This document shows, one piece after another, positions 50,523-55,425 of a stretch of DNA of 64,000 nucleotides. The DNA comes from Nitrospira sp. (GTDB lineage Bacteria > Nitrospirota > Nitrospiria > Nitrospirales > Nitrospiraceae). The notes beneath the pieces are model-generated. The model had not been told where the DNA came from, searched no databases, and saw nothing but the letters and a program-made list of their open reading frames with translations. Numbering within the stretch: the stretch's first letter is position 1; every line of letters begins with the position of its first letter. A program made the translations under genes and the position numbers. The stretch is taken from positions 3,431,501 through 3,495,500 of the forward strand of contig BQWY01000001.1 in the NCBI GenBank assembly GCA_036984305.1. The letters run 5' to 3'.

Positions 50523-51275
50523 CTAGTGGGCATGCTCGTCGCCATGCCCATGCAAGGTAATGGCATCACCCATATAGACACAGGTGAGCACGGTAAATAT
50601 GTAGGCCTGAATAAAAGCAATACCCAGTTCCAGGCCATTCATCGCAATCGTAAACGCAAATGGAAGCCAGCCGATCAGCAGTCCTCCGCTCACCGCGAGA
50701 CCGAACAAGACCCCCAGGATGACATGGCCGGCGGTCATATTGGCAAACAGTCGGACAGCCAACGAAACGGGCCGCGCGAGCTGACTGACCAATTCGATCG
50801 GGATCATGAGCGGTAAGAGCCAACCCGGTGTTCCGGGCGGCACGAGAATGCCCAAGAACTTTCCTCCATGCAGCACAAACCCCAACACCACGCTGAGCGC
50901 ATAGACCACGAGGGCGAAGACCGCGGTCACAATGAGTTGACTCGTGACGGTATAGGAACCAGGAATCAACCCCAACAAATTACTGAAGAGAATGAAGATA
51001 AAGAGCGTGGCAATGAAGGGGAAAAACCGCATCCCCTTCTCGCCCATCGTGTCGAGAATAATGCCACGAATAAAATCCACCATCAGTTCGGCCAGGCTTT
51101 GGAGCTTACCCGGGATTAAGCTCTTCGACTGCGCGGCACGAATGAGCAGGAAGGCCGCCAAGCCGACCACGATCCACATCCAAATCACGGCCTTATTTAT
51201 TGAGATATCAAAACCGAACAACGAAATCGGCACGATCTCGTGCAACTCGAATGGGTGTAATGGGCTCTCTTCCAC
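50523..51275 (-). CDS. atpB: ATP synthase Fo subunit a
   Basis: 250 residues, five to six membrane segments. The essential Arg is Arg175 in RPVSLAVRLFANMTAGH; FSNLLGLIPGSYTVT and the C-terminal GLELGIAFIQAYIFTVLTCVY are conserved. Forms the proton half-channels beside the c-ring. His-rich C-terminal tail (HGHGDEHAH) is unusual but seen in some relatives. Confidence 0.93.
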   Translation of the reverse strand: MEESPLHPFELHEIVPISLFGFDISINKAVIWMWIVVGLAAFLLIRAAQSKSLIPGKLQSLAELMVDFIRGIILDTMGEKGMRFFPFIATLFIFILFSNLLGLIPGSYTVTSQLIVTAVFALVVYALSVVLGFVLHGGKFLGILVPPGTPGWLLPLMIPIELVSQLARPVSLAVRLFANMTAGHVILGVLFGLAVSGGLLIGWLPFAFTIAMNGLELGIAFIQAYIFTVLTCVYMGDAITLHGHGDEHAH

Positions 51276-51308
51276 TGCTGCACCAACCTTTTCGTAAACC
51301 CGTGCGTC

Positions 51309-51527
51309 TTAGGATGACCAGCGCTGCGCGGCGCGGTAGGCGCTGCGCACCCCCGCCGCGAGACCGAGCACCAAGCCTGCCACCATGCCCCAGGGGGTTG
51401 AATTGAACAGGTAAGTATCGGCCGCCCACCCGAGCCCGCCGCCGACAATCAATGCGGCGAGCACCTCCGTTCCCACACGAAGGGCCTGACCCAGACCCGC
51501 ATAGAGAGGATCCGTCGAGGGAGGCAT
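51309..51527 (-). CDS. AtpZ/AtpI-like small Fo-associated protein
   Basis: 72 residues with two membrane segments (LAALIVGGGLGWAADTYLF and GMVAGLVLGLAAGVRSAYRA), matching the ATPase_gene1 (AtpZ) family in length and in the GGGLGWAAD motif. These proteins assist assembly of the c-ring or Mg2+ supply. First gene of the Fo cluster; AAGGGCAG precedes its ATG. Confidence 0.78.
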   Translation of the reverse strand: MPPSTDPLYAGLGQALRVGTEVLAALIVGGGLGWAADTYLFNSTPWGMVAGLVLGLAAGVRSAYRAAQRWSS

Positions 51528-51909
51528 TTGTCTGCCCTTATCGCACTCGACACACCCATAGGGCGGGTCAAGCTACAACAAAAGCGCGCCATTCAAACAA
51601 GAATCGCCCTTCAATGTCAAGGAGTTTGTCGCGTCTGGCTTGACACCATGCAATTCTTCCAATTCCTAGCCGTAGATCGCCCGAGGCCTCACCGGCATCC
51701 CCCAGCCAAAAGTAGTCCTGACTAAGGAAGCCTCCACCTCACCTCACGTGTGGCAAACCTAGCATGGATGAATATTGACGATGTGTTTCTTCAGCGGGTA
51801 GCCTGCTGACACCATCGGAACACCCTCAACTATGTACCCGGTACCGGTGTCCGCTAACCGCTGCTGCGCAGGCTGGTTGATGGTATAGATTTCTGGTGTA
51901 GGATTCGAG
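51528..51909. other. Divergent intergenic region, Fo cluster / protease gene
   Basis: 382 bp. Contains the promoter-like pair for the Fo operon (next entry). On the plus side I see no convincing promoter for the protease gene, apart from AGGATT before its ATG as a weak ribosome site. Confidence 0.45.
51591..51620 (-). promoter_or_regulatory. Promoter-like pair for atpZ-B-E-F
   Basis: Minus strand: consensus TTGACA (51620-51615), 18-bp spacer, TTGAAT (51596-51591). Gives a leader of roughly 57 bases before atpZ. Confidence 0.4.
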
Positions 51910-53154
51910 ATGACACGATGTCGTCGTGGCATGGTGCTCGCTCACGGGGTGGTCCTCACTGTCACCCTCTTGGTTGGGTGTAGTTCGGGTGATTCCTCGG
52001 CGCCTCCCCCGGCTCCCCTACCACCCCCGACGTCGCAGGGCGACATACAAGACCTTGGGACGTTCTCGATCCCGGCAGGTGCCTTGCTCGCCAGTCCGCT
52101 CTCGGTGGACGCCATTGGAGCCTCATCGTTGTTGCTGGTTGCAATTCCCTCTACGGGCAACGCCACCGCAGTCATGACCAATATCATGAATCCTAGCGGA
52201 CAAACGCTGGTGACGCTGGACCCCAATGATCTGGACCCAATCGGGAAGAATCTGTTCCAACAAATTGGGTACGCCGTGACGGCGGGTATCCTGCCGCACA
52301 GCACCACCTACACATTTGAAAACGGCCGTTACCAATTTCAAATCGGAAATCCGAACGGCTCGCCCGTTTCAACACAGGTTCTGGCGGTGCTCAACAGGCG
52401 CCTCAATCCGACCGCAGGTGCATTGGACCTCAATCTGGTATTCTGCGGTATTCAAGACCTCGACAGCCAATCGGCCCTCACCAATCAGGACTTCTTGTTG
52501 CTCTTCAATGAATTCCAAAGGATTCTCGCTCAGGTCAACATTCAAGTCGGAACGGTGCACACATTCGATTGTCCTGCAAGCCTGGTTGGGCAATTGGCGG
52601 TGGTTAACGGTACCGACGAGCAGGCGCTGCTCTTCTCGCTCAACCCACCGGCGGGGAACGAAGCCCTCAACGTCTTTTTTGTCCAGGATATCCAACTTCA
52701 GGGTATTGCCGGCGTACTGGGCGTATCCGGCGGCATACCCGGTCCGGCCCGTATTCAAGGGACCGGCGCTTCAGGGGTTGGGATTTCGCTCGTGGCTTCG
52801 CGGATTGGAGACCTCACGGCTTCCGATCTGCTGCGCCGAGGACGCACCATGGCCCACGAGGTGGGTCACTACGTCGGGCTCTTTCACACAACGGAACGCA
52901 CCGGCTCGACTCCGAACTCGCCGACTAACTTTATCAACGTCGATCCCATTCCAGACACGCCGGAATGCCTTCTCACCGTCGACCAGCCACCGACCGGCGA
53001 TGGGGATCAATCGGTGGATCCGACCGAGTGCGGGGTGGGGGGTGGCGCTCGAAACTTGATGTTTTGGACGCAGGGACCGGATGCACTGGGCGCGCGCGAT
53101 CAAATTTCACCGGACCAAGCCTTTGTCATGCTGCGGAATCCGCTCGTGCGTTGA
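51910..53154 (+). CDS. M43 (pappalysin)-like metzincin lipoprotein protease
   Basis: 414 residues. Signal peptide with lipobox (VLTVTLLVGC) and a Pro-rich linker. The C-terminal third has the metzincin zinc motif HEVGHYVGLFH (His316, His320 and His326, catalytic Glu317), followed by DPIPDTPECL, a pappalysin-type calcium/disulfide region, and a Met-turn in ARNLMFWT. The N-terminal 250 residues (GALLASPLSVDAIGASSLLLV...) form a beta-rich prodomain or PPC-like domain. Surface-attached protease of unknown substrate. A HEAT-repeat protein gene follows after 32 bp. Confidence 0.78.
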   Translation: MTRCRRGMVLAHGVVLTVTLLVGCSSGDSSAPPPAPLPPPTSQGDIQDLGTFSIPAGALLASPLSVDAIGASSLLLVAIPSTGNATAVMTNIMNPSGQTLVTLDPNDLDPIGKNLFQQIGYAVTAGILPHSTTYTFENGRYQFQIGNPNGSPVSTQVLAVLNRRLNPTAGALDLNLVFCGIQDLDSQSALTNQDFLLLFNEFQRILAQVNIQVGTVHTFDCPASLVGQLAVVNGTDEQALLFSLNPPAGNEALNVFFVQDIQLQGIAGVLGVSGGIPGPARIQGTGASGVGISLVASRIGDLTASDLLRRGRTMAHEVGHYVGLFHTTERTGSTPNSPTNFINVDPIPDTPECLLTVDQPPTGDGDQSVDPTECGVGGGARNLMFWTQGPDALGARDQISPDQAFVMLRNPLVR

Positions 53155-53186
53155 CGCAAAAGTGCGATACGGCCAAGGAGAACGAC

Positions 53187-53816
53187 ATGAAATCCCTATC
53201 CATAGCGATCACCGTCGTATTGATCCTGGCGGCGTGGGGGTGCGTCGCATCCAATGCCTCAGCTGAGGCAGCCCGAACCACGCAACTTCACACCATCATG
53301 AGCCTCTTGGCCGCCGAAGAACATGTCGCAACGGCGGAGGACTTGGCCCGCATAGGACCGGACGTTCCAGAGTTACTCACCACGCTGGCGCAGGACCATC
53401 AACTGGATATTGCCTATCGGGCTCGCGCCACCTCCTACTTAGGGTACTATCAGGGTAATTCCAGCGTCGGCCGGTTCCTCTCCTCGCTTGTATCAACCCC
53501 TAACCCGCCCGCGCCACTCCTTCGGCGCGGGCTGACCGCGTTGGCGCACGTGTCCAAGGGAAAGGCTATTCCAGCTATCGCTCCGCATCTCAAATCTTCC
53601 GATGTCCTCGTGCGCGAAGCCGCCGCTCGGGCGATGGTCGACACAGGAGATCCCGCAGCGCTGAAAGCGCTGAAGGAAGCCGCCGCTACCGAGCGGGAAC
53701 CGTTTCTACAAAAGAAAATGCATGACATGGCGGGAACAGCGGTCGACCACGCTAGGGACCAGAGTCCCGCCGTCCAACGGGAAAGCAACTCGGAAGTTCA
53801 GTCGACCCATTACTAG
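53187..53816 (+). CDS. Exported HEAT-repeat protein
   Basis: 209 residues from ATG 53187 (AAGGAG upstream). Signal segment LSIAITVVLILAAWGCVASNASA contains a Cys that could act as a lipobox (LAAWGC) or a standard cleavage at ASA. The rest is paired helices: DLARIGPDVPELLTTLAQD, LLRRGLTALAHVSKGKAIP and DVLVREAAARAMVDTGDPAA, the last being a clear HEAT/PBS-lyase repeat. Likely a scaffold or inhibitor acting with the upstream protease; only co-location supports this. Confidence 0.7.
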   Translation: MKSLSIAITVVLILAAWGCVASNASAEAARTTQLHTIMSLLAAEEHVATAEDLARIGPDVPELLTTLAQDHQLDIAYRARATSYLGYYQGNSSVGRFLSSLVSTPNPPAPLLRRGLTALAHVSKGKAIPAIAPHLKSSDVLVREAAARAMVDTGDPAALKALKEAAATEREPFLQKKMHDMAGTAVDHARDQSPAVQRESNSEVQSTHY

Positions 53817-53937
53817 ACCACCGCCATCGCCAGACCATGTCGTGATTCCCTCACGGCGACCCGGCTCTCTCGCCTGCTACGTGCGGGCGAGGAATAGTGG
53901 AACCTGCCCCGACCCTGCTATATGATGGCTCCCACCT

Positions 53938-55425
53938 ATGTTGGAGCCGTCCAGAGAATCCTATTTGCTCGACTCGCCTCAGCCATTGACCCTGTCGTTT
54001 CCACTCGCCTCACTGGACCCCTTTCACTTTCATACGCAACTCGATGACGCTGTGGAACCGACATTCCTATTGGAATCCGGTCGGCCGCAACTTGGGCAGC
54101 CCTGCTACTCCTTCTTCGGCGAACGACCTTACGCAACCTTATCGCACCAGGATGGCCGGACGTGCTTGACCACCGGATCCCATACCGCAGTATTAATCGA
54201 CGATCCGCTCGACGTCCTCATGGAGCATGCGATTGTGCCGGACATGGCAGCACGCAAAGAAAGACCGCCATTTGTCGGAGGAGCGGTTGGATTCCTGAGC
54301 TACGATTACGTCCGTAGGCTCGAAACGCTTCCCTCCGTCGCTGCCGCTGACATCCCTGTACCGGATATCCAGATGGCCCTGTACGATTTGATCGGAGCGA
54401 TCGACCACGTTCAGGGCACAGTCGACTTGATGTTCAGCCCGTCTGCGGTCCGATTCGCAAGGGAAAATCGGGCCTCGCTCTATGAAGAAGGTCGAGACCG
54501 CTTGCACCGATTGTACGACCGATTGACGCAGCCACGAACATCTCATCGGCAGAGCTACAATTGGCAGGCGCTCGTTCCAACGGCCGGTCAGTCCCGATCG
54601 GAATACATGGCTCGCGTGGAGCGAAGCCAGGAATACATTCGGGCCGGGGATATCTATCAAGCCAACCTCTCTCATCGCTTCACGTTCGACTTGTCGGCAG
54701 TGGGTCGACATGAAACCAGTCCCCACCGGAGGGTCGGCACGGCATTGTATGAACGGCTTCGGTCTGTGAATCCGTCTCCCTTTGGGGCCATCATGAGCTT
54801 CGACGACCTGACGCTCGTCAGCTGCTCCCCGGAGCGACTCGTTCGCAAGCTGGGACGGGCCGTCGAAACCCGACCGATCGCGGGTACTCGACCCCGTGGC
54901 GCCGGTGCCTGGGAGGACGACCGTTTAAAGCACGAGCTCCTGGCGAACGCCAAGGAGCGTGCCGAACATCTGATGCTGGTCGATTTAGAGCGCAGCGACC
55001 TTGGCCGTGTCTGCGCCTACGGCACCGTTGCCGTCGACGAGTTCATGACCGTCGAACAATACTCGCACGTCAGCCACCTAGTTTCGAATATTCGGGGCAC
55101 TCTTCGACCCGAGATGACCGGAGCCGACGTCCTTCGCGCGGTCTTTCCAGGCGGTACGATCACGGGGGTGCCCAAAGTACGTTGTATGCAAATCATCGAC
55201 GAATTGGAGCCGGTCCGGCGTGGAATCTACACAGGGTCGTTGGGCTACATCAGCCGCACGGGGGATATGGATTGGAACATTCTGATCCGTACCATGCTGT
55301 TGAGAGGCCACCATGGATACCTGCAAATGGGCGCCGGGATCGTCGCGGACTCCGACGCTCAACGCGAATATGAAGAGACCCTGCATAAGGGGCAAGCGTT
55401 CTTTTCGGCACTACGGGCAGGCTAG
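53938..55425 (+). CDS. pabB: Chorismate-binding synthase component I (PabB favoured, TrpE possible)
   Basis: 495 residues. N-terminal domain with a TrpE-like FLLES (residues 43-47), then the chorismate-binding core: AGDIYQANLSHRF, SPERLVRKLGRAVETRPIAGTRPRG, FPGGTITGVPKVRCMQIIDELEP and YTGSLGYISRTGDMDWNILIRT. The downstream aminotransferase-IV gene (one base away) argues for aminodeoxychorismate synthase in folate synthesis. However, residue 315 is Ala (PIAG), as in anthranilate synthase, where classical PabB has Lys. The glutamine amidotransferase partner is not in the window. Confidence 0.8.
   Translation: MLEPSRESYLLDSPQPLTLSFPLASLDPFHFHTQLDDAVEPTFLLESGRPQLGQPCYSFFGERPYATLSHQDGRTCLTTGSHTAVLIDDPLDVLMEHAIVPDMAARKERPPFVGGAVGFLSYDYVRRLETLPSVAAADIPVPDIQMALYDLIGAIDHVQGTVDLMFSPSAVRFARENRASLYEEGRDRLHRLYDRLTQPRTSHRQSYNWQALVPTAGQSRSEYMARVERSQEYIRAGDIYQANLSHRFTFDLSAVGRHETSPHRRVGTALYERLRSVNPSPFGAIMSFDDLTLVSCSPERLVRKLGRAVETRPIAGTRPRGAGAWEDDRLKHELLANAKERAEHLMLVDLERSDLGRVCAYGTVAVDEFMTVEQYSHVSHLVSNIRGTLRPEMTGADVLRAVFPGGTITGVPKVRCMQIIDELEPVRRGIYTGSLGYISRTGDMDWNILIRTMLLRGHHGYLQMGAGIVADSDAQREYEETLHKGQAFFSALRAG

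Follow-up and report, generated by a model that had tools for sequence, protein, structure and literature searches.

The bacterial proteases described so far that stand closest to the one considered here are leptolysin of Leptospira and the pappalysins ulilysin and mirolysin. Ulilysin and mirolysin silence themselves by means of pro-domains that are removed by autolysis, whereas native leptolysin forms one unprocessed band of about 50 kDa and, in the account given of it, appears not to process itself (PMC9445424). Made alone in E. coli, leptolysin ends up in inclusion bodies and requires high-pressure refolding, and the refolded enzyme is active without any partner (PMC9445424). That paper treats the enzyme alone, and the words HEAT, operon and adjacent are absent from its main text (PMC9445424).

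The idea of a partner gene adjacent to that of a secreted enzyme is likewise already known. In Tannerella forsythia, genes for small lipoprotein inhibitors, the potempins, precede those of the KLIKK proteases, an arrangement for which the source refers to forthcoming data (PMC7296668). Potempins are reported there as inhibitors (PMC7296668), whereas for the HEAT-repeat proteins described below such an activity is putative. The likeness to the present locus lies in a secreted protease encoded beside a small exported protein, the potempin being a dedicated partner, and the difference in gene order, the HEAT genes following the protease instead of preceding it. Mirolysin is one of the KLIKK proteases, and the potempin fold is not known to be a HEAT fold. 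A second parallel is that of lipase and its foldase Lif, in which the gene of a secreted hydrolase is followed by that of an all-helical periplasmic chaperone; here the enzyme is a lipase and not a protease, and the likeness is one of gene arrangement, a chaperone action of the HEAT protein being putative.

We met no published account of a HEAT partner for this type of protease: a literature search that took in few subscription papers yielded no paper pairing a pappalysin with a HEAT repeat, and broader searches of the literature returned nothing on a protease-HEAT pairing. We describe such a partner beside pappalysin relatives in Nitrospirota, Nitrospinota, Myxococcota and a saprophytic Leptospira.

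The protease and its exported neighbour

The window, a stretch of 64,000 nucleotides from a Nitrospira genome, contains the following features of the pair.

51910..53154, plus strand: leptolysin-related M43/pappalysin-type metzincin, predicted lipoprotein of 414 residues (open reading frame, translation, NCBIfam, predicted model)
51910..51981, plus strand: signal peptide with lipobox, residues 1-24, ending TLLVGC (sequence)
52042..52404, plus strand: N-terminal beta-rich domain, residues about 45-165 (predicted strands)
52855..52887, plus strand: zinc site HEVGHYVGLFH, residues 316-326 (sequence)
53053..53067, plus strand: Met-turn NLMFW, residues 382-386 (sequence)
53175..53180, plus strand: ribosome-binding site of the HEAT gene, AAGGAG, 6 nt before its ATG
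53187..53816, plus strand: predicted exported HEAT-repeat protein of 209 residues, ATG at 53187, stop codon ending at 53816 (translation, Pfam)
53424..53426, plus strand: codon of Arg80 of the HEAT gene, invariant in 38/38 aligned partners

The first-pass annotation had assigned the protease to the pappalysins from its zinc motif, the sequence DTPEC (residues 349-353) and its Met-turn, and all three are indeed found in the lipoprotein encoded at 51910-53154, whose signal peptide ends in the lipobox LLVGC; the combination of HEXXHXXGXXH with a downstream Met-turn is that of M43. In an alignment of 48 sequences, comprising the window protease and 47 hand-chosen members of the other 82 in the tree described below, H316, E317, H320, G323, L324 and H326 of the zinc site and M384 of the Met-turn are invariant (48/48). 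The lipobox Cys24 is invariant as well (48/48), a count favoured by the selection, which dropped most rows with doubtful starts. The relatives are by prediction lipoproteins: 70 of 83 show a lipobox by pattern, the misses being due in part to uncertain starts.

At the profile level the best NCBIfam model is Leptolysin M43 (NF047970; E 8.1e-15, residues 241-413), at 54.5 bits against an equivalog cut-off of 950, and the Pfam M43 model (PF05572) yields 12.6 bits against a gathering cut-off of 23; within the 48 selected rows, the leptolysin model is matched at E 0.001 or better by 41 and PF05572 at E 0.01 or better by 31. An AlphaFold model (pLDDT 86.4) shows a metzincin domain preceded by an N-terminal domain rich in beta strands, and the five top Foldseek matches are all ulilysin entries (best E 1.6e-7). 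In structure comparisons, which barely cover the fold of the N-terminal domain, the model aligns with ulilysin (3lun) at Z 15.8 over 203 residues with an rmsd of 3.4, with mirolysin (6r7w) at Z 14.7 and with PAPP-A2 at Z 14.0; the metzincin fold is thus closest to the pappalysins, though snake-venom metzincins tie with ulilysin in the Z list. The window protease accordingly shares zinc motif, Met-turn and predicted fold with ulilysin, mirolysin and PAPP-A, and where ulilysin and mirolysin carry pro-domains it has a putative exported second protein encoded alongside. The pappalysin label therefore stands by fold (ulilysin) and by best NCBIfam model and falls short at the PF05572 and leptolysin cut-offs. 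Because the PF05572 score is below its cut-off, we word the assignment as M43/pappalysin-type and related: on profile scores and predicted structure we call the protein a leptolysin-related, pappalysin-type metzincin and, by PF05572, not a formal member of M43.

The second gene begins after a gap of 32 nt (53155-53186) with its own ribosome site AAGGAG and encodes, as proposed in the first pass, what appears to be an exported HEAT-repeat protein. Pfam HEAT_2 matches residues 110-174 with 43.4 bits, above its cut-off of 27.7, and the predicted model is all-helical (pLDDT 92.8), a solenoid of helical pairs, so that profile and fold both place the protein among HEAT-repeat proteins. By fold or sequence it comes closest to alphaRep proteins, which are designed binders, and to the lyase subunits CpcE/CpcF, although in the Z list these matches lie near unrelated solenoids. 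The N-terminus is hydrophobic, with a poor lipobox (AWGC) and a possible signal-peptidase-I site (ASA); in the relative from another genus (G012, below), the aligned cysteine belongs to a clear lipobox.

Across the 39 HEAT partners assembled below, all (39/39) have a hydrophobic N-terminus, a count to be read with our choice of starts, which favoured such N-termini. A lipobox by pattern occurs in six of the 39, and the other 33 look soluble and exported. The independent Pfam model HEAT_2 is matched at E 0.01 or better by 32 of 38 partners, and Arg80 is the sole residue besides the start methionine that is invariant in all 38 aligned. Our own HEAT profile picks up generic HEAT proteins in the phylum too, so that its E-values alone define no family.

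Linkage of the two genes within and beyond the phylum

The protease had been described in the first pass as rare in nitrifiers. What holds is that the window type is rare within the family, G012 being its one strong relative across the 175 genomes of the family; regarding nitrification, a search for amo gave no match, and the control query likewise matched nowhere. G447 offers a merely weak N-terminal match to the window protease, and the match of L028 is also confined to the N-terminal region. L003, again matching at the N-terminus only, falls in a frame resembling an RND-type adaptor and was rejected as a relative. Of 395 genomes of the phylum, 14 have a PF05572 match at E 0.001 or better, 10 of these above cut-off, and around 16 M43 loci of the phylum found with PF05572 there were no HEAT matches (0/16, flanks up to 1.5 kb).

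A different metzincin followed by a HEAT protein was encountered in G411 (L026:1399-3226), constituting a second metzincin-HEAT neighbourhood in the phylum. It was rejected as an ortholog, Reprolysin_3 scoring above cut-off. Its zinc motif reads HEIGHHLGLSH, the two genes overlap by 11 nt if the ATG at 2156 is the HEAT start, and the metzincin is apparently unexported, no export signal being seen by inspection in either protein.

The conserved linkage to which the first-pass annotation had looked as a check is borne out by G012, by a Leptospira plasmid and by a wider scan. G012 belongs to another genus of the same family and carries both genes, with 48% (protease) and 38% (HEAT) identity to those of the window and a gap of 26 nt, judged by a start that lies behind a ribosome site. 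Phage records gave no match; plasmid matches in PLSDB are limited to two records, both from one strain of Leptospira biflexa. The one of these examined, p74, encodes an M43 protease that is 40.7% identical to residues 252-413 of the window protease; with a gap of 0 nt comes next a gene annotated 'HEAT repeat domain-containing protein', whose product aligns to the G012 partner at E 6e-4 and weakly to that of the window (E 0.064). Leptolysin, itself exported, is the best curated match of the p74 protease as of the catalytic part of the window protease; with 163 bits for p74, 61.5 for G012 and 54.5 for the window, all are far under 950, and by this score the p74 protease is a relative of leptolysin and not the leptolysin equivalog itself. 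The leptolysin data consequently serve as analogy only.

A scan of GTDB genomes with a broad alignment returned 113 relatives of the protease. Most of the best 80 belong to records that bear Myxococcota, Myxococcales or Deltaproteobacteria in their titles, and Nitrospinota and others are also represented. (One such record, L107, is titled Klebsiella pneumoniae; it carries the protease family, groups with a Myxococcales sequence and is probably a mislabelled MAG.) HEAT genes were called with a profile built up iteratively from the three partners just named, and a script set their starts. A clear HEAT open reading frame lies directly downstream in 36 of the best 80 loci; under a looser label the same 80 of 113 divide into 37 with HEAT downstream (adding L123, where HEAT matches are present and not assigned to a gene), 41 without and two cut by contig ends, the 41 including L108, whose HEAT gene stands directly upstream, and L124, in which the HEAT matches are more than 1 kb away. 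To judge by the record names, several pairs of loci come from one genome each (L056/L064, L049/L112, L061/L063, L094/L102, L101/L117, L092/L118), and L048/L052 are close relatives. The potempin-like adjacency of a protease and a small, putatively exported protein is accordingly found in these 36 of 80 as well as in the window, G012 and p74, and these 39 make up the partner set, to which L108, L123, L124 and L026 do not belong; L082, a truncated protein, was left out of the partner alignment and of the Mantel test below. The gap between the genes ranges from -17 to 92 nt with a median of 10, is at most 30 nt in 30 of the 39, and includes several stop-start overlaps. As a control, the 583,488 bases of the best 80 loci contain HEAT matches outside the counted slot only in L108, L123 and L124. 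The cases in L. biflexa, Myxococcota and Nitrospinota led us to reject the view that the pair is an oddity of one phylum.

In a quick tree of 83 proteases, in which the L. biflexa sequence is a long branch of unsure placement, the 'HEAT downstream' label is spread across well-separated branches and changes 10 times, compared with about 27 times when shuffled (none of 500 shuffles as low). Protease and HEAT distances are correlated over 38 pairs (Mantel r 0.616; maximum of 2000 permutations 0.219), a correlation that still contains shared species history and ancestry, and the nearest neighbour is the same in both sets for 24 of the 38.

The surroundings of the pair in the window are as follows.

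50523-51275, minus strand: atpB, an ATP-synthase gene, next to the gene of the small membrane protein
51309..51572, minus strand: small membrane protein flanking the pair (open reading frame), which we take to be AtpI-like
53938..55425, plus strand: gene flanking the pair on its other side, which we take to be pabB/trpE-like, matched in 61/61 genomes, own included

In 26 of 29 loci from relatives, atpB lies within 1.5 kb of the pabB-like gene and divergent from it, too close to accommodate the pair. The distance is 0.5 kb in G012 (L157), compared with 2.66 kb in the window; the junction in G012 is empty and its pair sits elsewhere. The window pair thus appears to have been inserted between the AtpI-like and pabB-like genes (51572-53938) and, because these flanking genes adjoin without it in 26 of 29 loci, the two genes have probably moved as one unit. 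Direct repeats of at least 14 nt, as insertion scars, are absent from 51280-54100, and a scan for promoters and terminators gave nothing exceeding shuffled sequences.

Candidate roles of the HEAT-repeat protein

The recurrence of the pairing across distant phyla points to a HEAT protein that works on behalf of the protease, and the role of inhibitor or scaffold proposed for it in the first pass is compatible with the conserved pairing. Both genes, their order and spacing, the predicted export signals, the conservation across phyla and the parallel divergence can be read directly from the sequences. The reading that we tentatively prefer, with a probability of roughly 0.38, is that of a conserved, apparently mobile unit composed of a surface protease and a dedicated exported HEAT protein, the latter acting as chaperone and/or inhibitor in the periplasm. 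The short HEAT solenoid would bind the protease in the periplasm and would hold it in a folded, silent state until the lipoprotein has arrived at the cell surface, acting in trans much as the autolytically removed pro-domain of ulilysin or mirolysin does in cis. The choice of chaperone or inhibitor is made because leptolysin is unprocessed, and insoluble when made alone, because Tannerella has its inhibitor genes, and because HEAT solenoids are typical binding surfaces; inclusion bodies, for their part, are common in E. coli. A conserved HEAT partner is a concrete candidate for the folding, silencing or delivery of such proteases, and if the reading is correct, HEAT solenoids would join the types of protein already known to act as dedicated partners of secreted proteases.

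The same binding surface, together with best matches to alphaRep binders and CpcE/CpcF, would also suit an adaptor at the surface or in the periplasm that presents substrates or docks the protease without inhibiting it. With their lipobox pattern, six of the 39 partners could share a membrane with the protease; the remaining 33, however, look like soluble exported proteins beside a lipid-anchored enzyme, and no shared substrate is known, so we regard an adaptor as unlikely, albeit the least unlikely of the alternatives. Lower again we place a protein that aids the transit of the protease across the outer membrane, or its release, and not its activity. Culture supernatants contain leptolysin, a related enzyme (PMC9445424), the proteases are predicted lipoproteins and a helper gene next to its cargo would fit the gene order, but the unit contains no secretion machinery and 41 of the best 80 of 113 relatives do without a HEAT gene directly downstream. 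That the two proteins are expressed together while the HEAT protein functions separately, for instance as a substrate of the protease or as part of the same stress response, would agree with the presence of HEAT relatives beside other genes, which indicates that the module is used outside the pair; parallel divergence, tight spacing and linkage in several phyla nevertheless exceed the usual needs of a shared response, and this reading is more doubtful still. A pairing that arose by chance, or that simply follows from gene order, is highly improbable and was rejected on the downstream counts and the nearly empty within-locus control: HEAT proteins are abundant, with 3-28 profile matches per genome in 28 genomes, yet about 14 matches per roughly 5,000 genes would lead one to expect well under one adjacent case in 78, and 36 were observed.

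The preferred reading of a periplasmic chaperone and/or inhibitor can be drawn more sharply. The HEAT solenoid would wrap the leptolysin-related protease as a chaperone-inhibitor, Arg80 would lie as a pseudo-substrate in an arginine-preferring cleft, and the two genes would form a cross-phylum cassette. The role given to Arg80 is speculation, and we consider the whole improbable, ranking it beneath every alternative above except chance; if true, it would represent a new class of trans-acting protease control.

Occurrence of either family outside the pair

The HEAT profile was also used in the reverse direction, on 28 genomes (five of them positive controls) in which 30 loci were read. A protease of the family is present in the flanks examined of 12 of the 30 and absent from those of the other 18; five of the proteases met in this way (L136, L142, L143, L145, L155) lie outside the 80 loci of the scan. 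HEAT relatives stand without the protease in several genomes, and the view that the partner is exclusive to this protease was therefore rejected. Thirteen protease-less HEAT loci were read further, and in five of them (L131, L133, L134, L146, L147) an exported-type HEAT relative has as its neighbour what looks by eye like an alpha/beta hydrolase gene, encoded in all five cases on the opposite strand; possibly the same HEAT module stands there beside another hydrolase.

The protease, conversely, does not need a HEAT partner everywhere, as follows from the 41 of the best 80 of 113 relatives that have none directly downstream. Six HEAT-less proteases from Nitrospinota/Nitrospirae (L047, L054, L055, L068, L071, L080) have, by eye, an LpxK-like kinase gene close downstream, and the genomes of the first three hold another protease with a HEAT neighbour (L142, L143 and L145). 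In ten further loci (L057, L062, L070, L073, L083, L089, L090, L101, L104, L115) a gene resembling, again by eye, a short-chain dehydrogenase replaces the HEAT gene; these ten belong to a single protease clade of 11 rows.
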